Assembly: GCA_013407085.1 (NCBI GenBank)
Contig: JACCGJ010013839.1
Location: forward strand, 99,653-163,652
Length of the DNA: 64,000 bases
From: Atriophallophorus winterbourni
Lineage: Eukaryota > Platyhelminthes > Trematoda > Plagiorchiida > Microphallidae
Direction of reading: 5' to 3'
The position numbers were made by a program, and so were the translations under genes. This document shows, one piece after another, positions 10,413 through 46,052 of the stretch. Position 1 is the stretch's first letter, and every line of letters starts with the position of its first letter. Below the pieces are notes generated by a model that ran no database searches, was not told the DNA's origin, and saw only the letters and a list, made by a program, of their open reading frames with translations.

Positions 10413-10869
10413 ACCTGCTCTGCGGACGCATATATTTGTGCTCTCATACTTTTGGATTTATTTCCTCACAATTTTGCCTGAACTGGACGGTTCATATATA
10501 ATTGAACTCGTCTCAATTTGCTCTTTCGGAATATACCCATTTCAACTTCGAGCAAGGTGAATTCTTGAAAATTCAAATTTTCAAGTTTTAACCCAACTTT
10601 ACCGACGCGTGCAATATCCTTGGCGATTCAGAATATTGTTCCTGTTCGAATACTATTGAGAGGATCACATCATTTCGAATTGACTGATAGTTTTTTCAAC
10701 ACTATCAGATCGAAACTCGTTCAACCGCACCACTTTTATCCAACTCGTTCGTATTTTACCGCTTGGATCGCATCACTCCGATCCAACACAATCACTCCAC
10801 CAGTACCTACCGATCGATAAACAACTGCACCGGTAAGTGCATTGACCCATCACTCGTTGGATTGTAACA

Positions 10870-12234
10870 ATGACGCAAAGGATGACCTCGATGACCCAGA
10901 TAAAGAAGGCAGCACGTGATGTGTGTCAAATTTGTAACAAAGGGGTAAGCGCCAAATCCAACGCTGTTAAATGTTTTGGCTGTTTGAGTAAAATACATAC
11001 TAAATGTGATAAAGCCCTAACGAAAGAAGTGATATGTTTTATTAACAACGTTGATTTACCCGGTGTTTGCTACGTATGCTGTGCATGTCGAAGTAAACAG
11101 CCTATCGATACGACTACAAATCCTCCCCACGAGGCAAAGCTGGAATCTCGAATAGAGATTTTGGAAAATTGCTATCGAAAACTTGAGGAAACGTTTAAAC
11201 CGCTTTTGGTAGATACACTTGCCAACGCAATTCGACCCGAAATAAATGTTGCTCAAGACAAAAAGGAAAAGGAAATTACACCAATAACTGCTCTCTTAAC
11301 TGAATGTGTTGATAGCTCATCCGTAAGTAATAAAGATGGACCTACTGAAACCTGTTTACCTAGGTCCTCATCTGGTAAAATTGTGAACACTTTGTCCAGG
11401 ACTCCCCGTTGTCTAGTTGCTAGATCCGAGCCTCCCAAAAAAAGCAATGTTACCGCTCATTCTACTACGACAGATATCGCTCTCAGTGTAATCTGCACAA
11501 ATATCCCGGAATCGACAGATTCACTTTTCTCAGCAAGAAAAGCACATGAGCTCAATGAATGGACTAAGCTCTGTACACACATGGGCTTGAAAGCTTTGGT
11601 ACCTACATCAATGACGCGCTTAACCCGGCATAAAGACTCCCCACACGTAGACCGGCCGCGCCTATTAAGGGTGACACTACGAAATAAATCTGAAATGGAA
11701 GAAGTCATACTCAATGCGTATCTACTCGGTGCTTGTCCCGGTTTGACCTGCCGAGTACAAGCCGACATACCTTGGTGGGAAAGGAAAGGTCAATCCACTC
11801 GTCGAGACCACTCTACTTCACGTAGTTTAATATTCCTCGGTGTCCCCGAAAATGTTGATGTAGTATCAGCATCGGAATCAAAGCAACATGATTTGAAGCA
11901 ATGGTTATACATTGCCGATGCTATTGGATCTCGTGATTCCATTGTCGTAGATACTTTTAGAATACCCAGATCCTCCAACTACAAAGGCAATGGGCCCAGT
12001 CCTCTGAAAATCACTTTTCTAACGACTGAAATGGCTATCGCTATGAACACCGACTGGAAATCTAACCGCTCAAAACTTCCACCAGACGTGAGACTAAGTG
12101 TGCCCAAGCGTGTTCCCTCACTGAAACCCAGAGAACCATCGCAACCACAGCCTGATTGCAATCTTGTTATTGACAGTTCAAATGTTACCCCAAAAAACGA
12201 AAAGGGTCCGGCTCATCGCGAGTCGGACCAATAG
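10870..12234 (+). CDS. CR1-I ORF1 protein with PHD-like finger
   Basis: A 454-residue RNA-binding, chaperone-type protein expected to form the LINE RNP. Residues about 18-75 form a C4HC3-like finger (CQIC, CFGC, HTKC, CYVCCAC), typical of CR1 ORF1. A short coiled-coil-like segment is near 92-115. Two RRM-like blocks follow: ALSVICTNIPES to LLRVTLRNKSEM, and RSLIFLGVPENV to PLKITFLTTEMA. The ATG at 10870 is the first in frame. The last codons contain the AAAAAAC heptamer and stem described separately, and ORF2 follows in the -1 frame. Confidence 0.85.
   Translation: MTQRMTSMTQIKKAARDVCQICNKGVSAKSNAVKCFGCLSKIHTKCDKALTKEVICFINNVDLPGVCYVCCACRSKQPIDTTTNPPHEAKLESRIEILENCYRKLEETFKPLLVDTLANAIRPEINVAQDKKEKEITPITALLTECVDSSSVSNKDGPTETCLPRSSSGKIVNTLSRTPRCLVARSEPPKKSNVTAHSTTTDIALSVICTNIPESTDSLFSARKAHELNEWTKLCTHMGLKALVPTSMTRLTRHKDSPHVDRPRLLRVTLRNKSEMEEVILNAYLLGACPGLTCRVQADIPWWERKGQSTRRDHSTSRSLIFLGVPENVDVVSASESKQHDLKQWLYIADAIGSRDSIVVDTFRIPRSSNYKGNGPSPLKITFLTTEMAIAMNTDWKSNRSKLPPDVRLSVPKRVPSLKPREPSQPQPDCNLVIDSSNVTPKNEKGPAHRESDQ
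12192..12234 (+). promoter_or_regulatory. Candidate -1 ribosomal frameshift cassette, CR1-I
   Basis: The heptamer A AAA AAC (12192-12198) lies in the ORF1 zero frame (codons CCA AAA AAC). A 6-nt spacer (12199-12204) precedes a stem of GGTCCGGCTC (12205-12214) with GAGTCGGACC (12220-12229), ten pairs including one G-U, around a 5-nt loop. The ORF1 stop TAG begins at 12232. The -1 frame is open from the heptamer through ORF2. Heptamer, spacing and stem match known -1 frameshift signals; function is inferred. Confidence 0.78.
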
Positions 12235-12254
12235 CTACAGTACACGATTCGACA

Positions 12255-15062
12255 TTGTGTAAGACAAATACGATCAGGTGCATATATACAAATGCTCAGT
12301 GTTTAACTAACAAATTAGCTGAACTATGTGAGCTTTGTGATAGACTTTCACCCGATTTGGTTGCAGTTACAGAGACTTGGTTCCAGCCCTGCATGACTGA
12401 TGCTGAGCTTTTGATTCCGAAAATGTCACTACTTCGTCGCGATCGTGATCGAAGATCCGGTGGTGGAGTTGCAGTCTACTATCACGAACGTTTAGCGCAG
12501 TGTAACGTCATCGATCATCCTGACCTCAGCCTTCCTGATACGATGTGGTGTTCAGTAAAGCTAGTCAATGGAGATGAATGTACGATCGGCATCATTTACC
12601 GCTCGCCATCATCCGAAAGCTCATACAATGATAAGCTCATCGAATCATTGCAACACATCACAAGATGCCAGACTATGCAATTGCTAATCATTGGCGATTT
12701 TAATCTCCCGCATCTGTTTTCGAGAGGTGAGCACTCCCTGCATTCGTTTGAACATAAATTCAAGGAGGTTATGGAATTTGCTTCACTACACAATCACGTT
12801 AACCAGCCAACTCGCTGGCGGGGTGTTGACCAACCTTCACCCCTTGACCTTGTCTTAACGCCTGAGGCAACCGCAGTAGAGGGTATACAATACCTGGCAC
12901 CACTGGGGAAGAGTGATCATGTTGTGCTTTTGTTTGATTATGTATGTAGTGCGGAACGATTGTGTGAACAGACGAAAGTCATAAGGAAAATACAATTTGA
13001 ATCCTTAAATATCAGTCTCAGGGATGCATACACTCATGAGTTTGATTCAATGGATCCTGGCTCATATTACAATTCGTTTCTAAATTATCTCAATTCGAAG
13101 ATTTACGAAAACTCGATTTTTGTACCACACAAATGCAGCTACAACAACCAGTTTGTTATGCGGAGTAGAACTAAGAAATGGTTAGCTGTTATGCGAGAGT
13201 CTTGGGTAACTCATAAGACGTTTGGTACGGAAGAAACTTGGAAGCGATTCTGTAAGATACGGAATAACGTCACGACTCTTGTAAGAGAAGATCGCATGCA
13301 ATTCCAATGGAACTTGCTTAAGAGAATGGAAAAGAATCCTAAGCTTCTCTACAAGATAGTAAATGAACGATCGAAGATCAAACCAGGTGTATTCTCTGTA
13401 CTAACACCTCATGGATTGACCCACACTGCCCAAGATACCGCCGACGCTTTAGCAACGTTTTACTCATTTGTCTTCAATCCCAAGCGTTGTATACCATATC
13501 AAGTTTCATCAAGTTCACCACATTTCGAATTATTAAGTGAAATGACTATCAACGAATACATGGTTGGGCGGGAACTTTGTCGACTAAACGAAAAGAAGTC
13601 CCCTGGCGCAGACAAAATTACCCCCGCCGTACTTCGCAGGTGTCGCGTTGCTTTGACTGCTCCTCTCACTCGCATATTCAATCTCAGCTTAAATGAAGGA
13701 AAAATACCACCGCAATGGAAAGCAGGGATGATAACTCCTATTTATAAAGGCGGTAGCCGTTCAGACACAGCAAACTATAGACCGGTAACGTTACTTCCGG
13801 TGATCTCCAAATTAATGGAACGCATTGTGACTGCGCGCATAAGAGAACATTTTGAAAACCAAAATATTTTGACCGCAGCACAACACGGTTTTCGAAGAGG
13901 TCGTTGCTGTTTATCTAACCTTCTTACAACGTTCGAGGATTGGACCAAGGCACTAGACGAAGGTGAGGCTGTACATGCTTGCTACATCGATATTTCCAAA
14001 GCTTTCGATAGAGTCAACCATGACATCTTAATTAAAAAGCTCGAATCCTATGGAATAACGGGAATATTGCTGAATTGGATAAGGGACTATCTTACTGATA
14101 GACACGTCCAAGTTCGCGTTGGCAGCACCTTATCTAGAAAAATAGACGTCACGAGTGGAGTTCCGCAAGGCTCGGTGCTTGGACCTCTTCTATTCTTGGT
14201 GTATATGAACGATATAGTAGAGGATATTGGATGCAACTTGATACTATTTGCCGATGATATTAAAATTTGGAAACGTGTCAGGTCTGTTAATGACTGTATG
14301 GCATTACAACGGGATCTAAGCATCTTATTTCGTTGGTCCCAGTTAAATGAGTTACCATTTAACCCTGCGAAATGTAAAATGCTGCAGCTTGGGAAATCTC
14401 TGCACCACACGTATCAGCTTGGCACGCAAGATCTCGTCTGGACCACAGCAGAAAAAGATCTGGGTATCTGGGTTTCGTTTAACCTGAAGCCTGGACAGCA
14501 TTGCCGGATGGTGTACAATAAAGCTTGCCGTATCTTGAGTCTTCTTAAAAGAATATTCCGGATTTTTACGCCCGGAACCCTACCCCGGGTAATTAACACG
14601 TATATACGTCATGTTATGGAATATTTCATTCAAGCCTGGGCACCATGGCTGAGGAAGGATATCGAACTACTCGACAGGATTTATCATCGTGCTACAAAGT
14701 TGGTCTCCCGGTACAGAAATTTGCCTTTCACAGAGCGAATGTTAAAACTGAACCTACCAGATTTTACCCAACGGCGGATACGTAGTGACCTTATGTTGAC
14801 CTTCAAAATCCTGCATTCTGTAAACCATCCCCTTAAACACTTGCTAAAGCCCAATGACCTTACTAGAACACGAACACATTCAAAGGCTTTAAGCATTCCG
14901 CATTCTCGATTGGATATACGTCGTAATTTTTTCTCCGTAAGAATTTGTTTCACTTGGAACTATTTGCCTGAAGAAATCACACGATCAGAATCTGTTGAGG
15001 TTTTCGCTTCCAAACTCGATGAGTTTATGACGAACCATGCGGTATGCGAATGTCCCTATTGA
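12255..15062 (+). CDS. CR1-I ORF2: endonuclease and reverse transcriptase
   Basis: About 935 residues from the TTG at 12255; the open frame begins further upstream and overlaps ORF1 in the -1 frame. No ATG precedes the endonuclease. The endonuclease shows IYTNAQCL, VAVTETWF, IIGDFNLP and SDHVVLLF (residues about 10-225). The RT shows SPGADKITP, GFRRGRCCLSN, YIDISKAFDRVNHD, SGVPQGSVLGPLLF and catalytic FADDIK near residue 664. The C-terminus has the CR1-type IQAWAPWL and RNFFSVRICFTWNYLP. The frame is intact. It would nick target DNA and copy the LINE RNA there. Confidence 0.92.
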   Translation: MCKTNTIRCIYTNAQCLTNKLAELCELCDRLSPDLVAVTETWFQPCMTDAELLIPKMSLLRRDRDRRSGGGVAVYYHERLAQCNVIDHPDLSLPDTMWCSVKLVNGDECTIGIIYRSPSSESSYNDKLIESLQHITRCQTMQLLIIGDFNLPHLFSRGEHSLHSFEHKFKEVMEFASLHNHVNQPTRWRGVDQPSPLDLVLTPEATAVEGIQYLAPLGKSDHVVLLFDYVCSAERLCEQTKVIRKIQFESLNISLRDAYTHEFDSMDPGSYYNSFLNYLNSKIYENSIFVPHKCSYNNQFVMRSRTKKWLAVMRESWVTHKTFGTEETWKRFCKIRNNVTTLVREDRMQFQWNLLKRMEKNPKLLYKIVNERSKIKPGVFSVLTPHGLTHTAQDTADALATFYSFVFNPKRCIPYQVSSSSPHFELLSEMTINEYMVGRELCRLNEKKSPGADKITPAVLRRCRVALTAPLTRIFNLSLNEGKIPPQWKAGMITPIYKGGSRSDTANYRPVTLLPVISKLMERIVTARIREHFENQNILTAAQHGFRRGRCCLSNLLTTFEDWTKALDEGEAVHACYIDISKAFDRVNHDILIKKLESYGITGILLNWIRDYLTDRHVQVRVGSTLSRKIDVTSGVPQGSVLGPLLFLVYMNDIVEDIGCNLILFADDIKIWKRVRSVNDCMALQRDLSILFRWSQLNELPFNPAKCKMLQLGKSLHHTYQLGTQDLVWTTAEKDLGIWVSFNLKPGQHCRMVYNKACRILSLLKRIFRIFTPGTLPRVINTYIRHVMEYFIQAWAPWLRKDIELLDRIYHRATKLVSRYRNLPFTERMLKLNLPDFTQRRIRSDLMLTFKILHSVNHPLKHLLKPNDLTRTRTHSKALSIPHSRLDIRRNFFSVRICFTWNYLPEEITRSESVEVFASKLDEFMTNHAVCECPY

Positions 15063-20774: not shown

Positions 20775-23762
20775 TCAATAACCAGGAATACCGTGACAAA
20801 ATATATTGTCTATAGAAGTGTTTATTTTGAGAATTTCGCATAGCGATGGAGCAGTAAGAGAATCTACGAGTGTTTTAAATTTACCTGCAGATGTGCACAT
20901 GCGGAAATGAAGTGGAAGAGAATTCCAAAGATGCGCATATCTAATTAAAAAGAAGTTTTGTCGAACTTTAGTGCGAGTAAGGGGAATATGTAATAGCCTC
21001 ATTCGGTTACGTCGTACAGAACGATTGCAATCTTGGAAGCGCATGGTAGATCTAAGCTTAACTTGGTGCTCTGTGATGATTCGGAAGAAAAGAAAAAGAT
21101 TAAGGCGAATTCTGCGTAACCATAGCGGGTCAATGTCTAGTAGATTGCATCTTACTTTATAAGGTGAAGGATTAGAGTAGCCTAACATGATTTTGCTAAT
21201 TCTACGTTGAAGGCTTTCTAAGAGAATACAGTCACGCCTAGCGATGTGAGAGTAGGCTATATTACAGTAATCAAGAAGTGGTAATACTTTCATTTTATAT
21301 AGACTTAGTCTACTTTCACGAAGGAGGAATTTTTGATTTATCAAACCAAAATTCTGTCTAGCTCTTGCTATGAGAAATCTTACTTGTTCGTTGAAATTGA
21401 GAGATGAAGAATATCTAAATCCTAAGTCTTTGATTTCGTTAGAAGGTGCGAGTGGTGTATTGTTGAGAATAATACTACCGGGGGGTATTGAGCAGCGTAT
21501 ACCCATGAATTGCGTCTTCAGAGCTGAGAATTCTAAACCCCATTGTGAGCCCCAACTTGAAAGGGTTGAAAGATCGTCGTTGAGAGAGTCTATAGCCTGT
21601 GATACCTCTATGGCTGGAAAAGCTAAAACAAGTTTAATATCATCCGCAAAGATAAAAAGCTTTGAGTTTTTTACGAAATCCTGCACATCATTAATATATA
21701 TAAGAAAAAGGAGGGGACCTAGTACGCTACCCTGAATGACTCCACTTGGTATAGGTTGTGTTTCAGAGGATATGCCATTAACGGAAACGGAGAAGGTGCG
21801 ATCAGAAAGATATGAGCAGAACCAATTAAATAGGGATCCGGAAATCCCAAGTGATGATAATTTCCGAAGAAGAAGAGAATGAGGAACCTTATCAAATGCT
21901 TTGGTAATGTCTAAGAAAACTGTCAGTACAGCTAATCCATGATCTATGGAGGCCGTTATATGGTCCAAATATTCCAGCTGACAGGTAATGCAGGACTTTT
22001 GATTTAAAAAACCATGTTGGAATGGAGAGAAAGCGTTTGGGCCCAAGTAAGCTATTAATGCGTTCTTGATCAACTTTTCGAATAGCCTAGAGAGAAAAGG
22101 TGTGTGATTAATTGGGCGATAATTAGTGACGATGTGCAAATTCCCTGTTTTAAGCCGAGGTACAATGACAGAATGTTTCCATTCGAGAGGAAAAATACCA
22201 GATTTAATAGAAAGATTAAACAGGTTTAATAAAATTAATGGTATATCATCCGTATTTAGTTGCAAGATTGCTGGAACAAAGCCCACAATATCAGGCTTGT
22301 AAGAAGCTTTGCTTCGCCGACACATTGAGCTAACTTCTTGTAAACTAAAGGAGATGGAATCCATACACATTGAATTAATATTTTGATTTGGGAGTACAGG
22401 GTATACGCTGGTATTGAATGACTGACTAAAATAGTTCAGAAAAAGCTTACTTATTGCTAAAGAGTCTGATGTTGATGATTCCCTACCATCATCGTTGAAC
22501 ACAAGTGTAGAAATTTCATGTTTACTTAGATTATATCGAGATCTCGTCAGACTGTTCAAAGACTTGGTCTTCGAAGCACTGTTCAGGGCCATTCTTTCTT
22601 GATTCTCGATGAATTGTAATTTGATTGTTGTAAAAGAGCTAAGAAGTTCCTTGAGACGTAAAAATGAATAAAAGTCTGGTGTGTGGTTGACAAAAGCAGA
22701 AAGACGGGCTATCTTTTTTTCAAGAAGTTTTATTTTATCAAGTTTAATAGGTTTAGTCTTTCGATGAAGTGATGCAGTTACAAGACATCTAGAGAGATTT
22801 TTATGAAATATGGAAGAGATAAGATTAAAATCTGGAGATATAAAGAAGTCAGTCCAATCAGAGTTTCTGATTAGAGTCGAAAACTTTATCCGATCAATAT
22901 AAAGACAATCATTATCTGTGCTGATGGATGTCCGAGTTTCATGAAGATGAAGTTGGCACATAACCATTTTATGATCACAACCAAGAAGGGGCGGTATGAC
23001 TTGCACATTACTAGGATTAGGACCCAATGTGAAAATAAGGTCTAGAAGGCTTGATTGCCTTGTAGGTTTATCTACTGCTTGAGTGTAACCTAGTAAGCTG
23101 ATTGCTTCGGAAAAAGAGGAAAATTTTCTAGATAGATGGGGGGAATTCCAGCATGTATAAGGCATGTTAAAATCACCAGCTATAAGTTTATTTTTATGAG
23201 GGGTCAGTGAAACTTCAATAAAAGCATTTTTTATCTTATCAAGATTATGTGAAGATGGAGGAGGTGGGTTGTAAATACAACCGAAAAGGGCGTCCAGTGA
23301 AGGTATATCGATCCATACCGAATCACCAATATCATCCAGTGTAGAAGAAGAATAAAGTTTGGCCGGGATATCCTTAGTAATATATATGATGCAACCACCA
23401 CCACGAGTGGAGCACCGATTTTTACGAAAAATATTATAATTTGGGAGGAAAAGGAGTGCGTCTGCATCTTCATCAGTCGTCCAAGTTTCAGTGATTAAGA
23501 CTACATCAGTCGGGTTATTAGATAGGAAAAATTGAAGATCAGACATTTTAGAAGTAATGGATCTCGCGTTAAATAGAAGGATGCGGATAGGGGAAGTAGA
23601 AAGAGGGGTATTAATGATAGGGGCCGGAGATTTGAAACTAGATTGCGCTACATCGTGTAGATGGGTGGAAACACAAGGGGAAAATTTGAAGGTTGGAAAT
23701 GGTCTGGGTAAAACTGGGTGGGGGCGTATGATGGATATATTTGTGGAGCAGGGTGTGGCCAA
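20775..23762 (-). CDS. CR1-II ORF2: endonuclease and reverse transcriptase
   Basis: About 995 residues from a TTG at 23762; the frame opens after a TAG a few codons upstream and holds no ATG before the endonuclease. Endonuclease motifs are ILLFNARSITSK, LITETWTTDEDAD, IAGDFNMPYTCW and GCDHKMVM. The RT has YRPINHTPFLSRLFEK, FQHGFLNQKSC, FLDITKAFDKVPH near residue 619, QGSVLGPLLFLIYINDV and catalytic FADDIK near 705. The C-terminus has LPLLDYCNIAYSH and YAHLWNSLPLHF. ORF2 overlaps ORF1 by over 110 nt in the -1 frame. It looks intact. Confidence 0.92.
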   Translation of the reverse strand: MATPCSTNISIIRPHPVLPRPFPTFKFSPCVSTHLHDVAQSSFKSPAPIINTPLSTSPIRILLFNARSITSKMSDLQFFLSNNPTDVVLITETWTTDEDADALLFLPNYNIFRKNRCSTRGGGCIIYITKDIPAKLYSSSTLDDIGDSVWIDIPSLDALFGCIYNPPPPSSHNLDKIKNAFIEVSLTPHKNKLIAGDFNMPYTCWNSPHLSRKFSSFSEAISLLGYTQAVDKPTRQSSLLDLIFTLGPNPSNVQVIPPLLGCDHKMVMCQLHLHETRTSISTDNDCLYIDRIKFSTLIRNSDWTDFFISPDFNLISSIFHKNLSRCLVTASLHRKTKPIKLDKIKLLEKKIARLSAFVNHTPDFYSFLRLKELLSSFTTIKLQFIENQERMALNSASKTKSLNSLTRSRYNLSKHEISTLVFNDDGRESSTSDSLAISKLFLNYFSQSFNTSVYPVLPNQNINSMCMDSISFSLQEVSSMCRRSKASYKPDIVGFVPAILQLNTDDIPLILLNLFNLSIKSGIFPLEWKHSVIVPRLKTGNLHIVTNYRPINHTPFLSRLFEKLIKNALIAYLGPNAFSPFQHGFLNQKSCITCQLEYLDHITASIDHGLAVLTVFLDITKAFDKVPHSLLLRKLSSLGISGSLFNWFCSYLSDRTFSVSVNGISSETQPIPSGVIQGSVLGPLLFLIYINDVQDFVKNSKLFIFADDIKLVLAFPAIEVSQAIDSLNDDLSTLSSWGSQWGLEFSALKTQFMGIRCSIPPGSIILNNTPLAPSNEIKDLGFRYSSSLNFNEQVRFLIARARQNFGLINQKFLLRESRLSLYKMKVLPLLDYCNIAYSHIARRDCILLESLQRRISKIMLGYSNPSPYKVRCNLLDIDPLWLRRIRLNLFLFFRIITEHQVKLRSTMRFQDCNRSVRRNRMRLLHIPLTRTKVRQNFFLIRYAHLWNSLPLHFRMCTSAGKFKTLVDSLTAPSLCEILKINTSIDNIFCHGIPGY
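23648..23687 (-). promoter_or_regulatory. Candidate -1 frameshift site, CR1-II
   Basis: The heptamer A AAT TTT (minus strand, 23687-23681) lies in the ORF1 zero frame (TCA AAT TTT). Slipping back one base gives AAA TTT and continues directly into ORF2 (FKFSPCVSTH). The ORF1 stop is at 23650-23648. Downstream pairing is weak: TTGTGT can pair with ACACGA across a 12-nt loop. Confidence 0.6.
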
Positions 23763-24859
23763 GTGGAAATTCTATGGGCGTTTGTTTGTGGTGGCTTAAA
23801 AGTTTGAGGGTTGGGATAAATATAAGGAAAGTTAAAGTTCCTATTTAGTCTAAGGTTTTGTGGATTTTCACCATGCTGCGTAGAGTGAGGGTAGGACCAC
23901 GATGCAGAATTGAGACGACCGTAAGGTGAAGGACCATAATAATTAAAGGTGGGAGCGTGTATAGGTAATTGGTGAAAATTTTTTCTTGAATAACTAGAAT
24001 TACTCTTTATAAAAGAGCCATTCGTATAAGGCCTAATAATTGGCGCTTGGTTGAGGAGAGGAGCTATTGCTCTAAATGTTGGAAGCTTAGCTTTTTTGTT
24101 ATCCTTAATAATTGGGCGAGGGACAGTTTGTGGATCAACGATTACCTGGGGTGTAGCAGGTGATCCGACGTCTAAGCTGATAGATACATTTTCAGTCAGG
24201 ACACTTATGTCAGTGAGGTTAGAAGTCTTGTTGCTACAAGATGGGGATTGGGTGCTTTCCGTCGCGGGCTTGGGAATTTTGCGGGTGAACTTACGTTGTA
24301 GGGGTGTGTTGTCACGTTTAAGCAACACATTCGAGAATCGAGGAAGTGAAGCTAGAACATGCTTGTTTTTTAGGATGTGAGAAGCATATTCTTCGTTAAT
24401 AAATTTGATAAGGATTGGGGTGCGTCTAGCAATTGACGATTTACGAAGCCTAATGAGTGTCGCTGAGTCAGCCGGAAGGCCGTAATGAGAGAGGATTGAC
24501 CGTTTGAGTTCATCCAACGGGTATTTATCGTCTATATTCAAAAGGATTATGTTCTTAGCTCTGATTCTCCGTTGCTCTATTTCCGAGGTTAGAGATTCAA
24601 CGAAGCGTCCCGTGCGCTGAAGCAGATCATAGTCAAGATTATAGTTGGGGTCAAGAAGAATTGCCAATGGTTCTAGTACCTTGAAAAGGCGCGATATACT
24701 GTTCACTTTATCAACCATGGTTTCAAAATTAGTCTCCAAATTGTGTAATTTAGAGAGTAGAGTCGACATATTAGAGTCTAGTACGACTGAACATTTATTC
24801 GATCGTGCAGTGACACGTTGTGTGTTTCGTGATGTTTTCAAGTATTTAGAAAGCACCAT
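23648..24859 (-). CDS. CR1-II ORF1 protein
   Basis: 403 residues from the ATG at 24859 (MVLSKYLK). The N-terminal third has heptad-like leucines (LSKLHNLETNF to ISRLFKVLEPLA), then an RRM-like block (AKNIILLNIDDKYPLDELKR to TPILIKFINEEYAS). The C-terminal half is rich in proline, asparagine and tyrosine and likely disordered. No PHD finger is present, unlike CR1-I and CR1-III. It is expected to bind LINE RNA. Confidence 0.8.
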   Translation of the reverse strand: MVLSKYLKTSRNTQRVTARSNKCSVVLDSNMSTLLSKLHNLETNFETMVDKVNSISRLFKVLEPLAILLDPNYNLDYDLLQRTGRFVESLTSEIEQRRIRAKNIILLNIDDKYPLDELKRSILSHYGLPADSATLIRLRKSSIARRTPILIKFINEEYASHILKNKHVLASLPRFSNVLLKRDNTPLQRKFTRKIPKPATESTQSPSCSNKTSNLTDISVLTENVSISLDVGSPATPQVIVDPQTVPRPIIKDNKKAKLPTFRAIAPLLNQAPIIRPYTNGSFIKSNSSYSRKNFHQLPIHAPTFNYYGPSPYGRLNSASWSYPHSTQHGENPQNLRLNRNFNFPYIYPNPQTFKPPQTNAHRISTWPHPAPQIYPSYAPTQFYPDHFQPSNFPLVFPPIYTM

Positions 24860-24885
24860 AATTGGCAAATAAACGTATGAAACAA

Positions 24886-25375
24886 TATATGCGATAGAGA
24901 GAACAAAGAAACTTGCCGAGTTTCAAACTGCCCGCTTTTAGTCGTTGCACGCTCGTTATTGACCGAGGTGTTGAGTGAAGCAGCCAAAGTGAGAAGCGAT
25001 TCGGATAGTCTGTCAAACCTTGCTTTGAAGATGGAAAGTTGTCAGATTGCTTTAAAGCAAATGCGCTGTGAAGCAGACTTGAACTCTGTCACCACCTTGG
25101 AAGGATTGGTCAAATGTTTGCCGGCTGGACTACAACAGCAATGGGCTGAACTGGCAGATGCAATTGCCGCTGATGGTTCAGAAGTTGAATTTGCACGTTT
25201 ATCCGAGTTTGTCTCCCGCAAAGCGAGAATCGCCAGGAGCAGGTTTGGCATGCTCATTAATGAGACTAAGCCATCAGAGAAATTGAAATTGTCCGAAGGA
25301 CGGAGAGTGTACATGACCACAAGTTACTCCCCATCAATGCGAATAGAATGCTACCAGTGTAAAGGACCTCATTGA
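24886..25375 (+). pseudogene. BEL-II gag, C-terminal part
   Basis: Gag resumes after the LINE with VVARSLLTEVLSEAAKV, MESCQIALKQMRCEADLNSV and LSEFVSRKARIARSRFGM, all aligned with BEL-I gag. It ends in the zinc knuckle CYQCKGPH, where a TGA replaces the next residue before IENC. Confidence 0.82.
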
Positions 25376-39390: not shown

Positions 39391-39416
39391 TAGTATTTTA
39401 CCTTTTTCATACTTAA

Positions 39417-39437
39417 TAGTCAATAGTCAATAGTTTT
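39417..39437 (-). repeat. CR1-III 3' heptamer tail
   Basis: Nearly three CTATTGA units on the minus strand. The related copy near 44984-45000 ends in the same heptamer. Confidence 0.82.
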
Positions 39438-39811
39438 ATTGTGGTAATAAAAGCTGATAGCTTGTAAGAAACCACTGGGTGGTGTGTACAGAGGGTCGCA
39501 CAAAGCGTGCTAAAAAGCATACATGAAGAGATAAAAAACGGAGGCAAATAGGCCTTATAGCGGGCCATGTTCGCGTATAGCATACACCTTGATTGGACAT
39601 TTGTGGCTTTTTATAGGGAGAAGTGTCAGCCCAAGACACATTCCCACCACGTCCTCCAGTGCATGACGGACTTGCGGACGGTTGCTTTGGCGTGAGCAAC
39701 GTTGATGCTTGCAAGCTGGGGAGAAAAAACTGGAAAAATGTTAGTTATTTATGGATATGTGAGTGGTATGTAGTATAATGGGGTAGAACGGAATGGCGAA
39801 AGATAAACAAG

Positions 39812-42611
39812 TCATTTGAAAGTTGATTGCCAAAGGTGTTTGTCTAGACGTTGCTTAAACGAAGACAGTGACTCAGCACATACCCCCTCCGGCGGGAGAG
39901 CGTTCCATACACGGCATATGCGAAGGGGTAGGAAATACCGTCGACTGTTCAATCGGCTGTTCTGATGAGCAATCTTGAGATTGTGCCCACGATGAGTACG
40001 TCGATTGGATAGAGGCATCAAGGACTTGCAAGGGTGGTGATTCTCTGTGAGAATGCGAAAGGTCAAAAGCAAATCACCGCGGAGGAGTCGGTAGCGGATT
40101 GAGAAGAGGCCGCTATACTGCAGCCGTTCTTCGTAGGACATGTTTTGAAGGCCGTTAATAAGCTTAGTTGCTCGCCGTTGTGGCTGTTCGAGGGCGTGCA
40201 TGTCTTGTTGGAGCCACGGATGCCACGCACTGACTGCATATTCCAGCGGGGGGCGGATGTAGGCGGACAGTAGCTGTGGGAAGAGTCGTCGGTCAAAGCG
40301 TCTGAAAAGTCGCCTCAGAAGACCAACACTGTGGTTTGCGGTTCTTGCAGCCTTGTTGCACTGGCTGGAGCAGCCCAAGTCGTGCTGTACGATGACGCCG
40401 AGGTCGCTTACCTGGTCCACATGGCGCAAAAGTTCGTCCCCCAAGTGATAAGCGTAACGAACAGAGTGTCGAATGGTCAGAATGTGGCATTTTTCTGAGT
40501 TGAACGGTAAATTGTGTTCTAATGACACTGATAGAGGCGGTCGAGGTCACGTTGCAGGATTTGATGATCTTCGAAGCTAGATATACGACGCCAAACCTTG
40601 AGGTCATCCGCGAAGAGTAAAAATGAGCTTGATAAGATCATGCTGATATCATTGATGAATATAAGGAAGAGAGTGGGTCCGAGTACGGATCCCTGCGGAA
40701 CCCCACTGGTTACCGGGAAACAGTCTGAATAGGCGTCTTTGACGCGCACACACGATGTGCGATCTTGCAGAAATCGGCTGATCCACGTCAACAAGGGGTC
40801 ATCGATTCCGTAGTGGCGTAGCTTTTGAATGAGAATAAGGTGATCAACTCTATCAAAGGCTTTCGAAAAATCCAGGTATGCCACGTCAACTGCCACCCGG
40901 CAGTCCACGGCTTTCGTCCAATCGTCCCTGGCCAACAGGAGGTTGGATAGGCAGGAGTGTCCTGGCCGGAAACCATGCTGTTCATGAGCAAGGATGTGAT
41001 TTTCCTCAAGGTGGCGTGTGATGGTGTCAGCTATAATACTTTCCATGACCTTTGAGATCACAGACAGCAGGGTCACCGGGCGGTAATTAGCTGGTAAGGT
41101 GCGGTCGCCTCCTTTAAAGACCGGAGTGATCAAGCCTTGTTTCCAAGTTTGTGGGACTTCAGCTGAGTCGAGTGAACGCTGGAAATATAGCGCCAGATCG
41201 TTTGAGATATATGCTGCGACTGCATTCAAAGCCTTTGGGTGTATGTGATCTATACCCGGGGAGCTATTCTGTCGCAGGTGGGTCAATTTGTGGTAGACGG
41301 CGTCGCGGCTGAAGATGATTGAGCTCAATGAAGGCACAGGAGACACTGGTGCAAGTATGACTACGGACTTAGGGGCAGCACGAAAGATGGGAGCGTACTG
41401 CGCGCCCAAAGTGCTGGCGACTTCTTCAGGTGACGTGGATAGACCCGAGGGTGTCTTGAGCGAAGGGATACCTGTTTTCACTTTCCTCCGAGCGTTGATC
41501 TCCTTGTATAGCAGCTTCGGGTTGTCTAGAAGTCTCAAAGTTAGCTGTTGTTGGTAAAGGAATTGATCATTGCGTTTGAGAGATGTACACTGGTTTCGCA
41601 ATAATCTGTAGAATTCCCAGTTCTCTGAGGTGGGGCATCGAGAGAAAGTATGCCATGCAAGGTTCCGTAGTGCCATCATTTTTTTGGTCCGGCTTCTAAT
41701 TGTCGGTCGGTCGCGTTTTGTTGGTATTGCCTTCATGGTCGATGATAGGTCAAGTAATGTGTGCCATCGTGTAACAAAACAACTCCAAGCAGTATCAAGT
41801 TGCGTAGTATGTAGCAAGTCCCACGTGTTCGCGGCAACAAGCTCACGCAGTAGCGTGTAGTTCGTAATCCTCCTAGTAGTGGCGTCCGGTATCCCCTCAT
41901 AATGAGAGTAGCAGAGGTAGTCAAATATCAGCACGGCATGATCAGCATGACCCAGTGGTGGTTCGATCATCATGTTTTCGACCATCAGTTCTTCGTTGGT
42001 GAGTATCAGATCGAGGGTAGACGGGATCTGGTGGCCGCAGAATCGTGTCGGTTCGTTGACATGGCTGTACAATGGATGGGTAGCAATCAATTCTGATAAG
42101 TCACGTCCAAACTGATGGCTGGGCGAGCCTGACGATACACCCGGAGAGTTGAAGTCTCCCATTATGAGGACATGCGTGAAGTGTTGAGAAAGTCCGAGTC
42201 GGATGGCAGTCAGCAAAGAAGAGTCTGTATGAGAATCCGCATTTGGAGGGCGGTAGATCACACCCAACAAGGCTACATCGTCGTGCTGCAAGAAAACTCT
42301 ACACCACAAAGTGTCAGGAACAGACAGATCAGGGTTCTCGATCTCTTCACAGCGTAGTGCTTGATTGTAATACAGTAGGACACCTCCACCTCTAGTCTTA
42401 CGATCAATGCGAAATGACAACATGTTTGGGAGCATTAGTTCAGTTTCTAATATGGTTGGGGTCAACCAGGTTTCTGTGATGGCAATGAGATCAAAGTTTT
42501 TTGTCGAATGAAGCAGTTTTAATTCGGAGAATTTGTTCGTGAATCCTCGGATGTTCGTATAGCAACAGGACAGTGTATGGCGGTTGCGTTGGGCGTCGTG
42601 AGGTGTACCAC
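39812..42611 (-). pseudogene. CR1-III ORF2, one frameshift
   Basis: The endonuclease starts upstream of any ATG: CCYTNIRGFTNKFSEL, LIAITETWLTP, LIMGDFNSPG and HADHAVLIF. The RT has SSPGIDHIHPKAL, QHGFRPGHSCLSNLLL, YLDFSKAFDRVDH, SGVPQGSVLGPTLFLIF and catalytic FADDLKVW. One base is lost near 40525 (between RLYQ and SLEHNLPFN); the rest, to LPLRICRVWNALPPEGV, reads through. A single lesion makes this a recently active copy. The frame is -1 relative to ORF1 and connects to it through the heptamer at 42648-42654. Confidence 0.9.
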
Positions 42612-42654
42612 CTAGGAAGCCGATCCGGAAGGGATCGGCTGTGGTAGGTTTTTT
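42612..42654 (-). promoter_or_regulatory. Candidate -1 ribosomal frameshift cassette, CR1-III
   Basis: Minus strand: heptamer A AAA AAC (42654-42648) in the ORF1 zero frame (TCA AAA AAC), spacer of 7 nt (42647-42641), then a perfect 9-bp stem AGCCGATCC (42640-42632) with GGATCGGCT (42626-42618) around a 5-nt loop, and the ORF1 TAG at 42614. The -1 frame is open into the endonuclease. This matches the CR1-I cassette in geometry but not in stem sequence. Confidence 0.78.
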
Positions 42655-44030
42655 GAGGCGGCTGCTTCACGTAATTCCGGTTGTTCGACCTCGGGTGTTG
42701 GGTCGGTAATTTTCGTCTCGGGTCTAATCCGATTGGTATCGATAGACGAACGAAGGCGAATTTCTGATGGAGCTTTCCATCGGTTCGCGTACCAACATTC
42801 GAGCGCCGACGTGACCATACTTTCCGACTGGAATGTTATTTTCGTAATTCGGGGGGCATTGCCTTTATAGTTCGGTGACTTGGGTAGGCGTTTTAGCGAC
42901 GTTGTGAGTGTGGCGGTTATGTCAGATTGTTGCTGTATAAAGCGCCATTGCTCACAGTCGTGAATGTTGTTTTTGGATTCGTCGGCGTCGGAAAGCTCAG
43001 GAATGCCGTGTACGTATATACTACGTTTGTCATTATCCTGCTTCCAGTCAAATGACGGCTTTTTCTTGGCTTGCCGTGCTGCCCATGGTAGATCGGCGAA
43101 GATGCGGATTGGAGTAGGGGATTTGCGAAGTACGTACGTGGAGAGAAGCACGGTTTCAGCTGCTTCAACGGACTTTAGTGTGACACGCAGAAGTCTGGGT
43201 TCTCCTAGGTGAGACGAATTCGGAGGCCTGGACAACCGCACCACGCTATCGGCTTCCGAGGAAACCTGAAGGGTACGACAAATTTGATCCCATTGCGAAA
43301 CGTCTTCGGATAGACGTTCTTTAAAACACGGCGACTTGGATTCGGGCACGTTTGTGCAGATCACCGTCATTCTACCATCGCGAGAATTCTGCTTAGGGTT
43401 TTTCTGTTGGTTAGCAGAAGGACGTGTTGCATCTATCGCTGGGACTAATGGTAGCTTCGAGATATGGGGATCAGTTTGTACACGAAGTGACGCAGCAACG
43501 ACTTTGGAGTAGCCAAGCTTGGTGGCGATCTTGGGGCGGATATCGTCCTTAATAGAATTAGGTGGTGATGAACAGGTCGTAAACTTCGAAGGAACAGCAA
43601 CCCTTTTCAACTCGGACTGTTGACGAGTACACAGAGAACCTTGGCTGTTTTCTAACCGGAGCAGTCTACTTTCAAGAGATGCAATTTTCTGAGACTGGGC
43701 AACTTGAACTTGAACTTGTTGGTCTAACAACGATAGCAGACAACGGACAGTTGGGTTTAACGAGCAAGCTGCACAGAGCCAAAGCTTACTTGCGTTTTGT
43801 TTGTGTTCATTAAAAACAGCGGACGTCAAACCCGAGCAACCAGGATGAAACCAGGAAGAGCAGATGCTACATTCTATCCCTTCAAGAACAGGGGTGGAAC
43901 AACCGGCTTTACCGCAATTAACTGTAGCTTCAGACGGCTTTTGGGGTTCAGGAGCTTTTCTACGTGCATTTTGTTGCAGTGAAGAATTCCCGAGACTACT
44001 CTCAGTAACTTTTGATCTACGAGCAACCAT
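42612..44030 (-). CDS. CR1-III ORF1 protein with PHD finger
   Basis: 472 residues from a true ATG. Residues about 38-92 form a PHD-like finger (CGKAGC, CSIC, HPGC, CAAC). A coiled-coil-like segment (VAQSQKIASLESRLLRLENS) follows near 110-130. Two RRM-like blocks are present: MTVICTNVPESKS to RLLRVTLKSVEAAETV, and RSIYVHGIPELSD to ITKITFQSESMV. Domain order equals CR1-I ORF1 although sequence identity is low. The 3' end carries the frameshift heptamer and stem. Confidence 0.87.
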   Translation of the reverse strand: MVARRSKVTESSLGNSSLQQNARRKAPEPQKPSEATVNCGKAGCSTPVLEGIECSICSSWFHPGCSGLTSAVFNEHKQNASKLWLCAACSLNPTVRCLLSLLDQQVQVQVAQSQKIASLESRLLRLENSQGSLCTRQQSELKRVAVPSKFTTCSSPPNSIKDDIRPKIATKLGYSKVVAASLRVQTDPHISKLPLVPAIDATRPSANQQKNPKQNSRDGRMTVICTNVPESKSPCFKERLSEDVSQWDQICRTLQVSSEADSVVRLSRPPNSSHLGEPRLLRVTLKSVEAAETVLLSTYVLRKSPTPIRIFADLPWAARQAKKKPSFDWKQDNDKRSIYVHGIPELSDADESKNNIHDCEQWRFIQQQSDITATLTTSLKRLPKSPNYKGNAPRITKITFQSESMVTSALECWYANRWKAPSEIRLRSSIDTNRIRPETKITDPTPEVEQPELREAAASKNLPQPIPSGSAS

Positions 44031-44054
44031 TATCTAGAAAATTTGTTACGTTCT

Positions 44055-44115
44055 AAGGTAGTTAAGCGTTCGGTCCATGCTACCAGTGTAATGCGGTCTC
44101 CGATAAAGATGGTGA
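44055..44115 (+). repeat. RTE-type 3' end fragment
   Basis: Resembles the minus-strand sequence 1125-1185 at the end of RTE-A (TAAGCGTTCGGT, GCTACCAGTGTAATG), including a degenerate GAT tail. Confidence 0.55.
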
Positions 44116-44209
44116 TGAAACTTTTGTGTCGATTAACCGACTCCCACTACAGACTTGTGGATGTCACGGAATCTTGGTTACCTCGTAATTACAATGTTCT
44201 GGTCTTTTC

Positions 44210-44485
44210 TCCCCAGCTTACAAGGATCGACGTTGCCCACGCCAAAGCAACCGTCCGCAAGTCTGTCATGCACTGGAGGACGTGGTGAAAATGTGTCTTC
44301 GATTGACACTTCTTCCTATTAAAAGCCACAAATGTCCAATCATGGTGTATGCTATACGCAAACATGGCCCGCTATAAAACCTATTTGCCTCCGATTTTTC
44401 TCATCATGTATGCGTTTTAGCACGCTTTGTGCGACCCTCTGTACACACCACCCAGTGGTTTCTTACAAGCTATCAGCTACCAAGA
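44210..44485 (+). repeat. CR1-III-type 3' UTR, inverted copy
   Basis: About 275 bp nearly identical to the reverse complement of 39440-39735, so the CR1-III LINE is bracketed by its own 3' UTR sequence in inverted orientation. Confidence 0.85.
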
Positions 44486-44489
44486 TAGG

Positions 44490-44700
44490 TGAACTGTTCC
44501 ACACAGTCCAGACCGTCAGAGTGGGCTGCATCCCCTCCCAATCATGAAGAAGAACCTTACACTTAGTTGGAGCTAGGTGCAAACCCTACCTAGACGCCTC
44601 CAATGCTAGCTGGTTCAGGGCATTCTGTAGGAACACCGGATCATCACCAAGCAAAGCAATGTCATCGGCATTGCTCCTCGTTGATCTTGCTATTCCCTTT
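44490..44700 (-). pseudogene. RTE RT fragment
   Basis: Minus frames give ADDIALLGDDPVFLQNALNQ, LALEASR, TKCKVLLHDWEGMQPTLTV, equivalent to YADDIALLGDDPHIMQ and the following residues of RTE-C. The region to about 44960 has no further recognised coding. Confidence 0.65.
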
Positions 44701-45069
44701 GGTGAAATTATCTCTTTGTACGACGAACCTGCAGGTAATGTCAGCTTCGCTCATGTTTTGAAGAAAGCTTATAGTGTTAAGCTGCATCTACCGTAGTCCT
44801 AACACTAGTTTGGAGGATGATGCTCTTTCGTAGGTTCAGTCTTCGTCTATTTTGGCCATGGCACTACGTTTTGCAATACTTGGTAAATTTTACCACTGAA
44901 TGTCGATGGCACTCTGCTTGAATGGATTGCAGATTTTCTGTTTGGCTGGACGAATCAAGTTTGTATGAACGCTTTTCCAATAGTCAATAGTCAATATATA
45001 TTGTATATTATGGTACAAAAAGCTATGAGCTTAATATATAACCATAGGATAGTTAGTACAGGGGGTCTA

Positions 45070-45392
45070 GTGGAGTTCAAGGGGTTCGGCGTCATTTGCC
45101 AAAGTTCCGTAAAGGGTGTGGTTATGTATCATAACAGTCAATACAAGGGGAGATGAATCGGCGTAGTTCCTGGAAAGGAAGAGGAAAATGGGTGCAGTAT
45201 CGGGAAGAAGGAAAAGCGAAAATCCATGAAACTTGTGGAGAAAAATAGAGATAAGCGTCAAGTCGCTCTTTAAAAATGGAGAGGGATGGGGAGGTCACGA
45301 CAAAATAGGGTGAGTCATTCCAAACACGAGGAATACGGACAGAAAAGAAAAATTTACGGCAGTTCAACCGACTGGGCTGGTGGGCTAGCTTG
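45070..45392 (-). pseudogene. CR1-V ORF2 C-terminus
   Basis: Reads KLAHQPSRLNCRKFFFSVRI and PRVWNDSPYFVVT, equivalent to NSRRYFLPLRICRVWNALP of CR1-III. It is separated from the preceding residues (ILEENKHPCH) by the RTE insertion at 45402-46052. Confidence 0.8.
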
Positions 45393-45401
45393 AAGACGTG
45401 T

Positions 45402-46052
45402 CCCAATGGTCAGGCGAAAGATGAAGTGAAGTTAAGGGTCGATCGTGCTCGTAATGCGTTTTTGCAGTTGAAAGGCACCCTTTGGCGCAAGCCCGGGATC
45501 AGCCTAAAAACTAAGACGCGTGTTTATCAAGCAGCGATCCGCCCTGTACTGCTTTACGGATGCGAGACATGGCCTTTAAGGTCACAGGATGTACGCACAT
45601 TATAAGTGTTCGACCATTGCTGCCTCAGGGTAATCTTGGGCATCCGATATACTGACCGAGTATCTAACGCAGCCGTACGAAAGCGTTGCAGCGGACTATC
45701 TCCACTTTCCGCTCACATACAACGGCGAAGGCTGCAATGGTTTGGCCACGTCCTCCGTAAGACAGACACAGCACTTCCAAAACTCGTCCTCGACCCCAAA
45801 CCCGTTCGCACCTGGCGTCGGCGGCAAGGTGGTCAAGTGAAAACCTGGCTGTCAACTGTGAAAGAGGATGTAGACACCCTGGGTCTGCGTACCGTCTACG
45901 GAGTTCGCAGGTGGGAACGAGACTGGATCACGATCTGCAACGATCTCGCCTCCGATCCACGTGCGTGGGCTGGTGCGATCCGAGACATCAATGAAGCCGG
46001 CTAATCCACTCGTGGAGCCAGCCGCACAAAAGTAAAAAGTAAGTAAGTAAGT
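45402..46052 (+). mobile_element. 5'-truncated RTE LINE (third RTE family)
   Basis: 651 bp flanked by the 9-bp duplication AAGACGTGT (45393-45401 and 46053-46061). It ends in an AAGT tetramer tail (46031-46052). Inserted in the CR1-V C-terminus. Confidence 0.9.
45414..46004 (+). pseudogene. RTE family 3 C-terminal region
   Basis: Reads KGTLWRKPGISLKTKTRVYQ, AIRPVLLYGCETWPLRSQDV, an in-frame TAA near 45603, then VILGIRYTDRVSNAAVRKR, LQWFGHVLRKTD and GGQVKTWLSTVKEDVDTLG. This parallels the C-terminal part of RTE-A to RTE-C with clear divergence. Final residues AWAGAIRDINEAG are followed by a stop. Confidence 0.82.

Follow-up and report, generated by a model that had tools for sequence, protein, structure and literature searches.

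A predicted -1 ribosomal frameshift signal at the ORF1-ORF2 junction of CR1-type LINEs in Atriophallophorus winterbourni

Introduction

How the second ORF of a LINE is translated is a long-standing question, and the reviewed answer, in the portion of PMC2881922 that treats it, is reinitiation. The CR1-III element, on the minus strand of the window (the whole 64-kb stretch of Atriophallophorus winterbourni DNA analysed here), raises this question at its ORF1-ORF2 junction, where the two ORFs overlap in different frames. The clade name CR1 was taken over from an earlier, sequence-only reading of the locus and does not come from RT phylogeny. Overlapping LINE ORFs with proposed frameshifts are mentioned for other clades. 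In the open-access literature we found no description of a heptamer-hairpin device in a CR1 element (most subscription papers and the Repbase notes lay outside this search).

We suggest that a canonical -1 programmed ribosomal frameshift signal occupies the 43-nt CR1-III junction and yields an ORF1-ORF2 fusion. We regard this reading as probable (about 0.86), and rival explanations are weighed below.

Results

Slip site, spacer and hairpin at the CR1-III junction

Direct reading of the minus strand gave the end of CR1-III ORF1 as TCA AAA AAC CTA CCA C, followed by AGCCGATCC, the loop CTTCC, GGATCGGCT and TCC TAG; in ORF1 codons this is TCA AAA AAC CTA CCA CAG CCG ATC CCT TCC GGA TCG GCT TCC TAG. 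The slippery heptamer A_AAA_AAC (42648..42654) lies in the ORF1 zero frame. It is followed by a 7-nt spacer, CTACCAC (42641..42647), and a predicted hairpin (42618..42640) with a perfect 9-bp stem (arms 42640-42632 and 42626-42618) and a 5-nt loop (42631-42627). The ORF1 TAG stop (42612..42614) begins 3 nt past the stem and 33 nt after the heptamer. The sequence-only reading had described the zero-frame AAAAAAC, the spacer, the stem, the loop and the stop in just this arrangement, and the description is exact to the base. Spacers of 5-9 nt are usual for -1 frameshift signals.

The ORF2 frame is offset by 2 from that of ORF1, i.e. -1, and is open from 42666. The two ORFs overlap by 55 nt, and A_AAA_AAC is the only phased X_XXY_YYZ heptamer within the overlap; one other in ORF1, GGGTTTG, lies 1212 nt upstream of the stop. 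An outer pairing, TACCAC/GTGGTA, was also predicted around the hairpin, spanning the ORF1 stop (window 42606-42646, minus strand). A G-to-T change in GTGGTA breaks it in 12 of the 29 CR1-III copy rows (28 distinct copies, L037 holding the same copy as L006), and we consider it probably not part of the device.

Domains of CR1-III and comparison with CR1-I

CR1-III ORF1 runs from stop to stop at 42612..44033 (minus strand), with an ATG codon starting at 44030. It encodes, in order, a PHD-like zinc finger, a long helix that is likely a coiled coil, two RRM-like domains and a disordered tail bearing the slip site. An ORF1 with PHD and/or RRM domains is expected of a CR1-clade LINE; two RRM-like folds were found here, and the PHD match (E 9e-4) is below the Pfam cut-off. 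The AlphaFold2 model of ORF1 (16-row alignment) has a mean pLDDT of 72.5, and its best fold matches are the tandem RRMs of HuD (E 4e-6) and HuR (E 5e-6), with low TM-scores.

The first part of ORF2 (40519..42666, minus strand, -1 frame) encodes an AP-type endonuclease and a reverse transcriptase, with PF03372, PF14529 and PF00078 above their cut-offs. Its last part (39812..40546, minus strand) is in another frame, this copy being interrupted near 40519-40546. A PDB sequence search with the N-terminal part of ORF2 returned no match, and an Rfam search of 39500-45500 returned two matches, both under the gathering score. Short arrays of a 7-base unit (GACTATT, minus strand), at window 39415-39434 and 44978-44996, mark what appear to be the 3' termini of CR1-III and a neighbouring 5'-truncated CR1 copy. 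By eye, CR1-III is flanked on both sides by about 150 bp in inverted orientation (window 39560-39720 and 44200-44350).

The CR1-I element (10846-15062, plus strand) has ORF1 at 10846-12234 and ORF2 at 12174-15062, again in the -1 frame. Its A_AAA_AAC (12192..12198) is in the ORF1 zero frame, followed by a 6-nt spacer (12199-12204), a predicted hairpin (12205..12229) of 10 bp with one G.U and a 5-nt loop, and a TAG stop (12232..12234) 2 nt after the stem. The ORF1 proteins of CR1-I and CR1-III are 35% identical over 214 residues, the endonucleases 41% and the ORF2s about 40%. The two junctions had been said to agree in heptamer, spacing, stem length, loop size and stop position; this is true of the heptamer and the loop size, and of the other three only to within 1 nt or 1 bp.

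Stability of the junction hairpins

The lowest-energy 36-nt window of ORF1 is the junction hairpin in CR1-III and CR1-I alike. Only 6 of 1387 ORF1 windows in CR1-III and 5 of 1354 in CR1-I reach the hairpin energy, and all of them overlap the hairpin. The CR1-III hairpin (9 bp, spacer 7) is predicted at -15.9 kcal/mol. None of 5000 dinucleotide shuffles was as stable as the junction hairpin in either element (z -5.5 for CR1-III and -5.8 for CR1-I). Synonymous recodings constrained to preserve the ORF1 peptide and an uninterrupted -1 frame were rarely as stable (4/5000 and 2/5000, respectively); therefore the ORF1 peptide does not force the hairpin. A simple H-type pseudoknot search detected nothing stronger than the CR1-I and CR1-III hairpins.

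We scanned 304 kb, the 64-kb window and 240 kb more of the same genome, for AAAAAAC sites that have, 5-9 nt downstream, a hairpin at least as stable as -8 kcal/mol. This was found at 12 of 143 AAAAAAC sites, 11 of them CR1 junctions, including an L055 junction whose endonuclease match is 98% identical to CR1-I. Permuted 7-mers in the same 304 kb had a hairpin at this distance in 2/128, 4/153, 2/178, 2/153 and 0/119 cases. CAAAAAA gave 10/131, nine of these overlapping an AAAAAAC. The other control heptamers gave 0/119 (AAATTTC), 0/99 (TTTAAAC), 0/185 (AAAAAAT), 1/89 (AAAAAAG), 2/98 (GAAAAAC) and 0/45 (AAAAGAC).

Recurrence of the junction in the genome

The genome searched comprises 537,331,230 bases in 15,840 contigs. 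A sample of 28 endonuclease-start junctions was drawn from the window, the LINE locus L002 (see below) and 200 kb of a single contig; because endonuclease matches with as little as 24% identity were admitted, the sample may include non-CR1 elements. AAAAAAC is in phase with an open frame at 12 of the 28, AAATTTT alone at one (element X), and 15 have no phased heptamer in the open frame. Irrespective of phase, AAAAAAC is present in the roughly 190 nt upstream of 18 junctions, and three of the 10 without it read AAAAAGC at the equivalent place. AAAAAGC stands in the junctions L041 +1518, L042 +8508 and L052 +3946; the similar L036 +9096, L040 +1556 and L051 +2439 read AAAAAAC.

Five families (I, III, IV, V and VI; the names IV to IX were assigned in this analysis) share an in-frame A_AAA_AAC with a predicted hairpin at 6-8 nt. 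Families I and III, with the stop 33 nt after the heptamer in both, have spacers of 6 and 7 nt and stems of 10 and 9 bp, each with a loop of 5. Family VI has a spacer of 6, a 9-bp stem, a loop of 7 and the stop again at 33 nt. In family IV the spacer is 8, the stem 9 bp, the loop 5 and the stop 42 nt after the heptamer, and in family V the spacer is 8, the stem 7 bp, the loop 7 and the stop only 6 nt after the heptamer. Over the five, stems range from 7 to 10 bp, loops from 5 to 7 nt and heptamer-to-stop distances from 6 to 42 nt, a wider spread than that between I and III. The stem sequences are unrelated among III, IV, V and the I/VI pair, and the endonucleases of the five families are 29-55% identical. 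The earlier argument, that a conserved geometry with diverged sequence points to selection on a frameshift device, gains support from the five families and from the unrelated stems of III, IV, V and the I/VI pair.

Family VII has a weak stem and reads AAAAAGC in three of six copies. In family V (L050 53-130 and 5994-6080) the ORF1 stop lies before the hairpin and an AUG lies upstream of the endonuclease, possibly a mixed translation strategy. Element X (window 20775-24922, minus strand) is a two-ORF LINE with overlapping ORFs in the -1 frame and an ORF2 about 30% identical to that of CR1-III. Its possible slip site, AAATTTT (23681..23687, minus strand), is in the zero frame and ends 30 nt before the ORF1 stop at 23650-23648. 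We rejected element X as a further case of heptamer plus hairpin: the heptamer is phased, but 566/5000 shuffles and 495/5000 synonymous recodings were as stable.

Pairing among copies

With up to 3 mismatches allowed, the opening 26 bases of the CR1-III junction match the genome at 155 places; the reversed control has no match. In these copies the heptamer, spacer and 5' arm are fixed by the search. Among the 28 distinct copies read we counted five changes over the five loop positions and one over the nine positions of the 3' arm.

The pattern of families I and VI (heptamer, 5-8 nt, GGTCCG, 8-18 nt, CGGACC) has 740 genome matches, and its reversed form none. The outer stem is common to both families; at pair 7 family I has G.U and family VI A-U, and at pair 9 family I has T-A and family VI G-C. 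Comparison of I with VI gives one double change, and the overall covariation score, from four distinct rows, is reached by 98/500 shuffles. Pairs were counted in 99 of the 100 matches listed out of the 740, one row with a shorter inner stretch being left out. In these 99, all with an inner stretch of 13 nt, pair 9 reads T-A 60 times, G-C 31 times and T.G twice and is unpaired in 6, i.e. paired in 93; 98 rows form pair 7, 94 form pair 8 and 65 form pair 10. Among the matches listed, pair 9 is formed in 17 of 22 distinct inner sequences, a value reached by 38/20000 shuffles, and pair 7 showed nothing beyond shuffles. Because a single divergence between lineages (I/IX against VI) accounts for most of the pair 9 variation, we count it as one compensatory change plus single-sided ones.

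Mispairs without any compensated double change are seen in the six family IV copies, in which 87% of cells pair, a share not above that of shuffles. This is as expected if these copies are dead. A lack of pairing conservation among copies had been named in advance as evidence against the device. The copies answer this in part: pairing is kept through the T-A/G-C exchange at pair 9 between I/IX and VI, and family IV shows no compensation. Formal evidence of covariation is thin overall.

Lys-Asn in ORF1 tails

Protein searches gave the ORF1 homologues P0001-P0015, which include proteins of Dicrocoelium dendriticum and Paragonimus westermani. We counted Lys-Asn, which is what AAA AAC encodes (the homologues' codons are not visible in proteins), in 13 homologues and the two window ORF1s. 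It occurs within the last 25 residues in 14 of these 15 proteins, at 10 times the density elsewhere, P0004 being the one without; none of 20000 shuffled-tail sets reached 14. The two partial proteins were left out of the count: P0010 lacks Lys-Asn, and in P0009 one stands 15 residues from the end. In seven homologues Lys-Asn stands exactly 12 residues from the end, and the tails otherwise differ. In the 16-row ORF1 alignment (29% mean identity) the tail Asn is invariant and the Lys is at least 90% conserved. The residue before the tail Lys-Asn is always encodable by an A-ending codon (0/19 exceptions, against 4/30 elsewhere), which is not significant (p 0.15). A stem search in back-translated homologous ORF1 tails gave p 0.30 when CR1-I and CR1-III were left out.

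The search for CR1 relatives in viral and genome contigs gave one useful locus, L002. This is a 4239-bp contig (JABSPP010000188.1) filed under a Flavobacteriaceae MAG and filled by a LINE, presumably a eukaryotic contaminant of the bacterial reference. Its ORF1 has no Pfam match and ends GTA TCA AAA AAC ... TAA, with the heptamer in frame and 36 nt to the stop, and its ORF2 is in the -1 frame. No strong stem starts 4-10 nt after the L002 heptamer; about 80 nt have to be folded before a larger structure emerges. L001 and L003, which lie on the same contig, have RT matches of 26-29%, and L004 and L005 have no LINE ORF in their ORF listings.

Start of ORF2

The main rival explanation has ORF2 translated by termination-reinitiation or by internal initiation, the routes proposed for SART1 and human L1, with the heptamer and hairpin incidental or only stalling the ribosome. 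Reinitiation is the mechanism reviewed for LINEs (in the sections of PMC2881922 on ORF2 translation), and in family V, when the ORF2 frame is numbered from the heptamer, residue 16 is an AUG codon that precedes the endonuclease core. In CR1-III, CR1-I and L002, however, no AUG was found in the ORF2 frame at or just past the ORF1 stop. The first in-frame Met of ORF2 is residue 78 in CR1-III, 73 in CR1-I and 174 in L002. As the sequence-only reading had claimed of CR1-III, the -1 frame has no early ATG: its first Met lies past CCYTNIRGFTNKF and TETW (residue 64). An Asn and a Glu that are invariant in a four-element alignment (CR1-III residues 38 and 65), which we take to be catalytic as in AP-type endonucleases, precede the first Met. 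The same reading had held that an ORF2 initiation site of its own would speak against the device; for CR1-I and CR1-III no AUG precedes the conserved endonuclease residues, and in family V such a start is possible. Reinitiation or internal initiation would also explain neither the phased heptamer nor the heptamer-hairpin spacing, and we regard it as unlikely.

We give still less credit to an ORF2 that begins with a non-AUG codon or from an IRES in the hairpin region. The near-cognate codons ATC, CTG and ACG do occur in frame ahead of the CR1-III endonuclease residues, but such a start would leave the heptamer phase, the heptamer-hairpin distance and the Lys-Asn conservation unexplained. Least probable of all, the hairpin would be kept for another RNA role (packaging or reverse transcriptase recognition) and AAAAAAC would be low-complexity chance; L002 and family VII have the heptamer without a good near hairpin and the two parts are therefore separable, but the stems are unrelated between families while their position relative to the heptamer is kept, which suits a mechanical and not a sequence-recognition role.

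Discussion

We suggest that -1 frameshifting at the CR1-III junction would proceed as follows. On arriving at A_AAA_AAC (Lys-Asn), ribosomes that translate ORF1 would be held up by the hairpin, which lies 7 nt further on. Some of them would slip back one base and continue in ORF2, and the product would be an ORF1-ORF2 fusion of the PHD-RRM protein with the endonuclease-RT. The remaining ribosomes would end at the TAG just past the hairpin, yielding the ORF1 protein alone, and frameshifting would set the ORF1 to ORF2 ratio. In many retroviruses gag to gag-pol frameshifting sets the product ratio. Slippage, its rate and the fusion as a working enzyme are what we infer from sequence, phase, spacing, predicted structure and recurrence. 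Element X, L002 and family VII, which have no good near hairpin, fit frameshifting poorly, as does family V with its AUG ahead of the endonuclease and its stop before the stem.

The CR1-III and CR1-I junctions resemble the -1 signals of retroviruses and RNA viruses in the zero-frame X_XXY_YYZ heptamer, the short spacer, the predicted stimulatory structure and the -1 ORF without its own start. They differ in that the host is a non-LTR retrotransposon and the predicted structures are simple hairpins. The part of PMC5009743 on slippery sequences lists A_AAA_AAC as one of the heptamers on which mammalian cytoplasmic ribosomes shift most.

In its domains (PHD-like finger, long helix, RRM-like domains, AP endonuclease and RT) CR1-III is like the CR1-lineage LINEs described in the main text of Metcalfe and Casane 2014 (PMC4120745), from which main text the word 'frameshift' is absent. 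The excerpts of PMC2881922 on SART1 and human L1 describe, likewise, two ORFs on one RNA and an ORF2 that depends on ORF1 translation. Unlike SART1 and human L1, CR1-I and CR1-III have no ORF2-frame AUG near the ORF1 stop, and they would produce a fusion protein. The Drosophila elements HeT-A and TART are non-LTR as well; the passages of PMC5009743 that concern them mention frameshifting in the HeT-A gag and an unexplained step in TART, and describe no heptamer-hairpin ORF1/ORF2 device in either. HeT-A differs further in encoding no reverse transcriptase.

We further consider that A_AAA_AAC frameshifting may be an old and general route of CR1-type LINEs to a gag-pol-like fusion, with the heptamer conserved through deep divergence and the hairpins repeatedly replaced by unrelated sequences at the same distance. 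We would lay even odds on this wider proposal. The occurrence of several unrelated hairpins in the same place in one genome would provide a natural experiment on the origin and turnover of frameshift stimulators. In a large LINE group, a retrovirus-like device would define the ratio of ORF1 to ORF2 and supply a fusion protein. If true, CR1-type LINEs would control their enzyme dose in the retroviral way and not by reinitiation.
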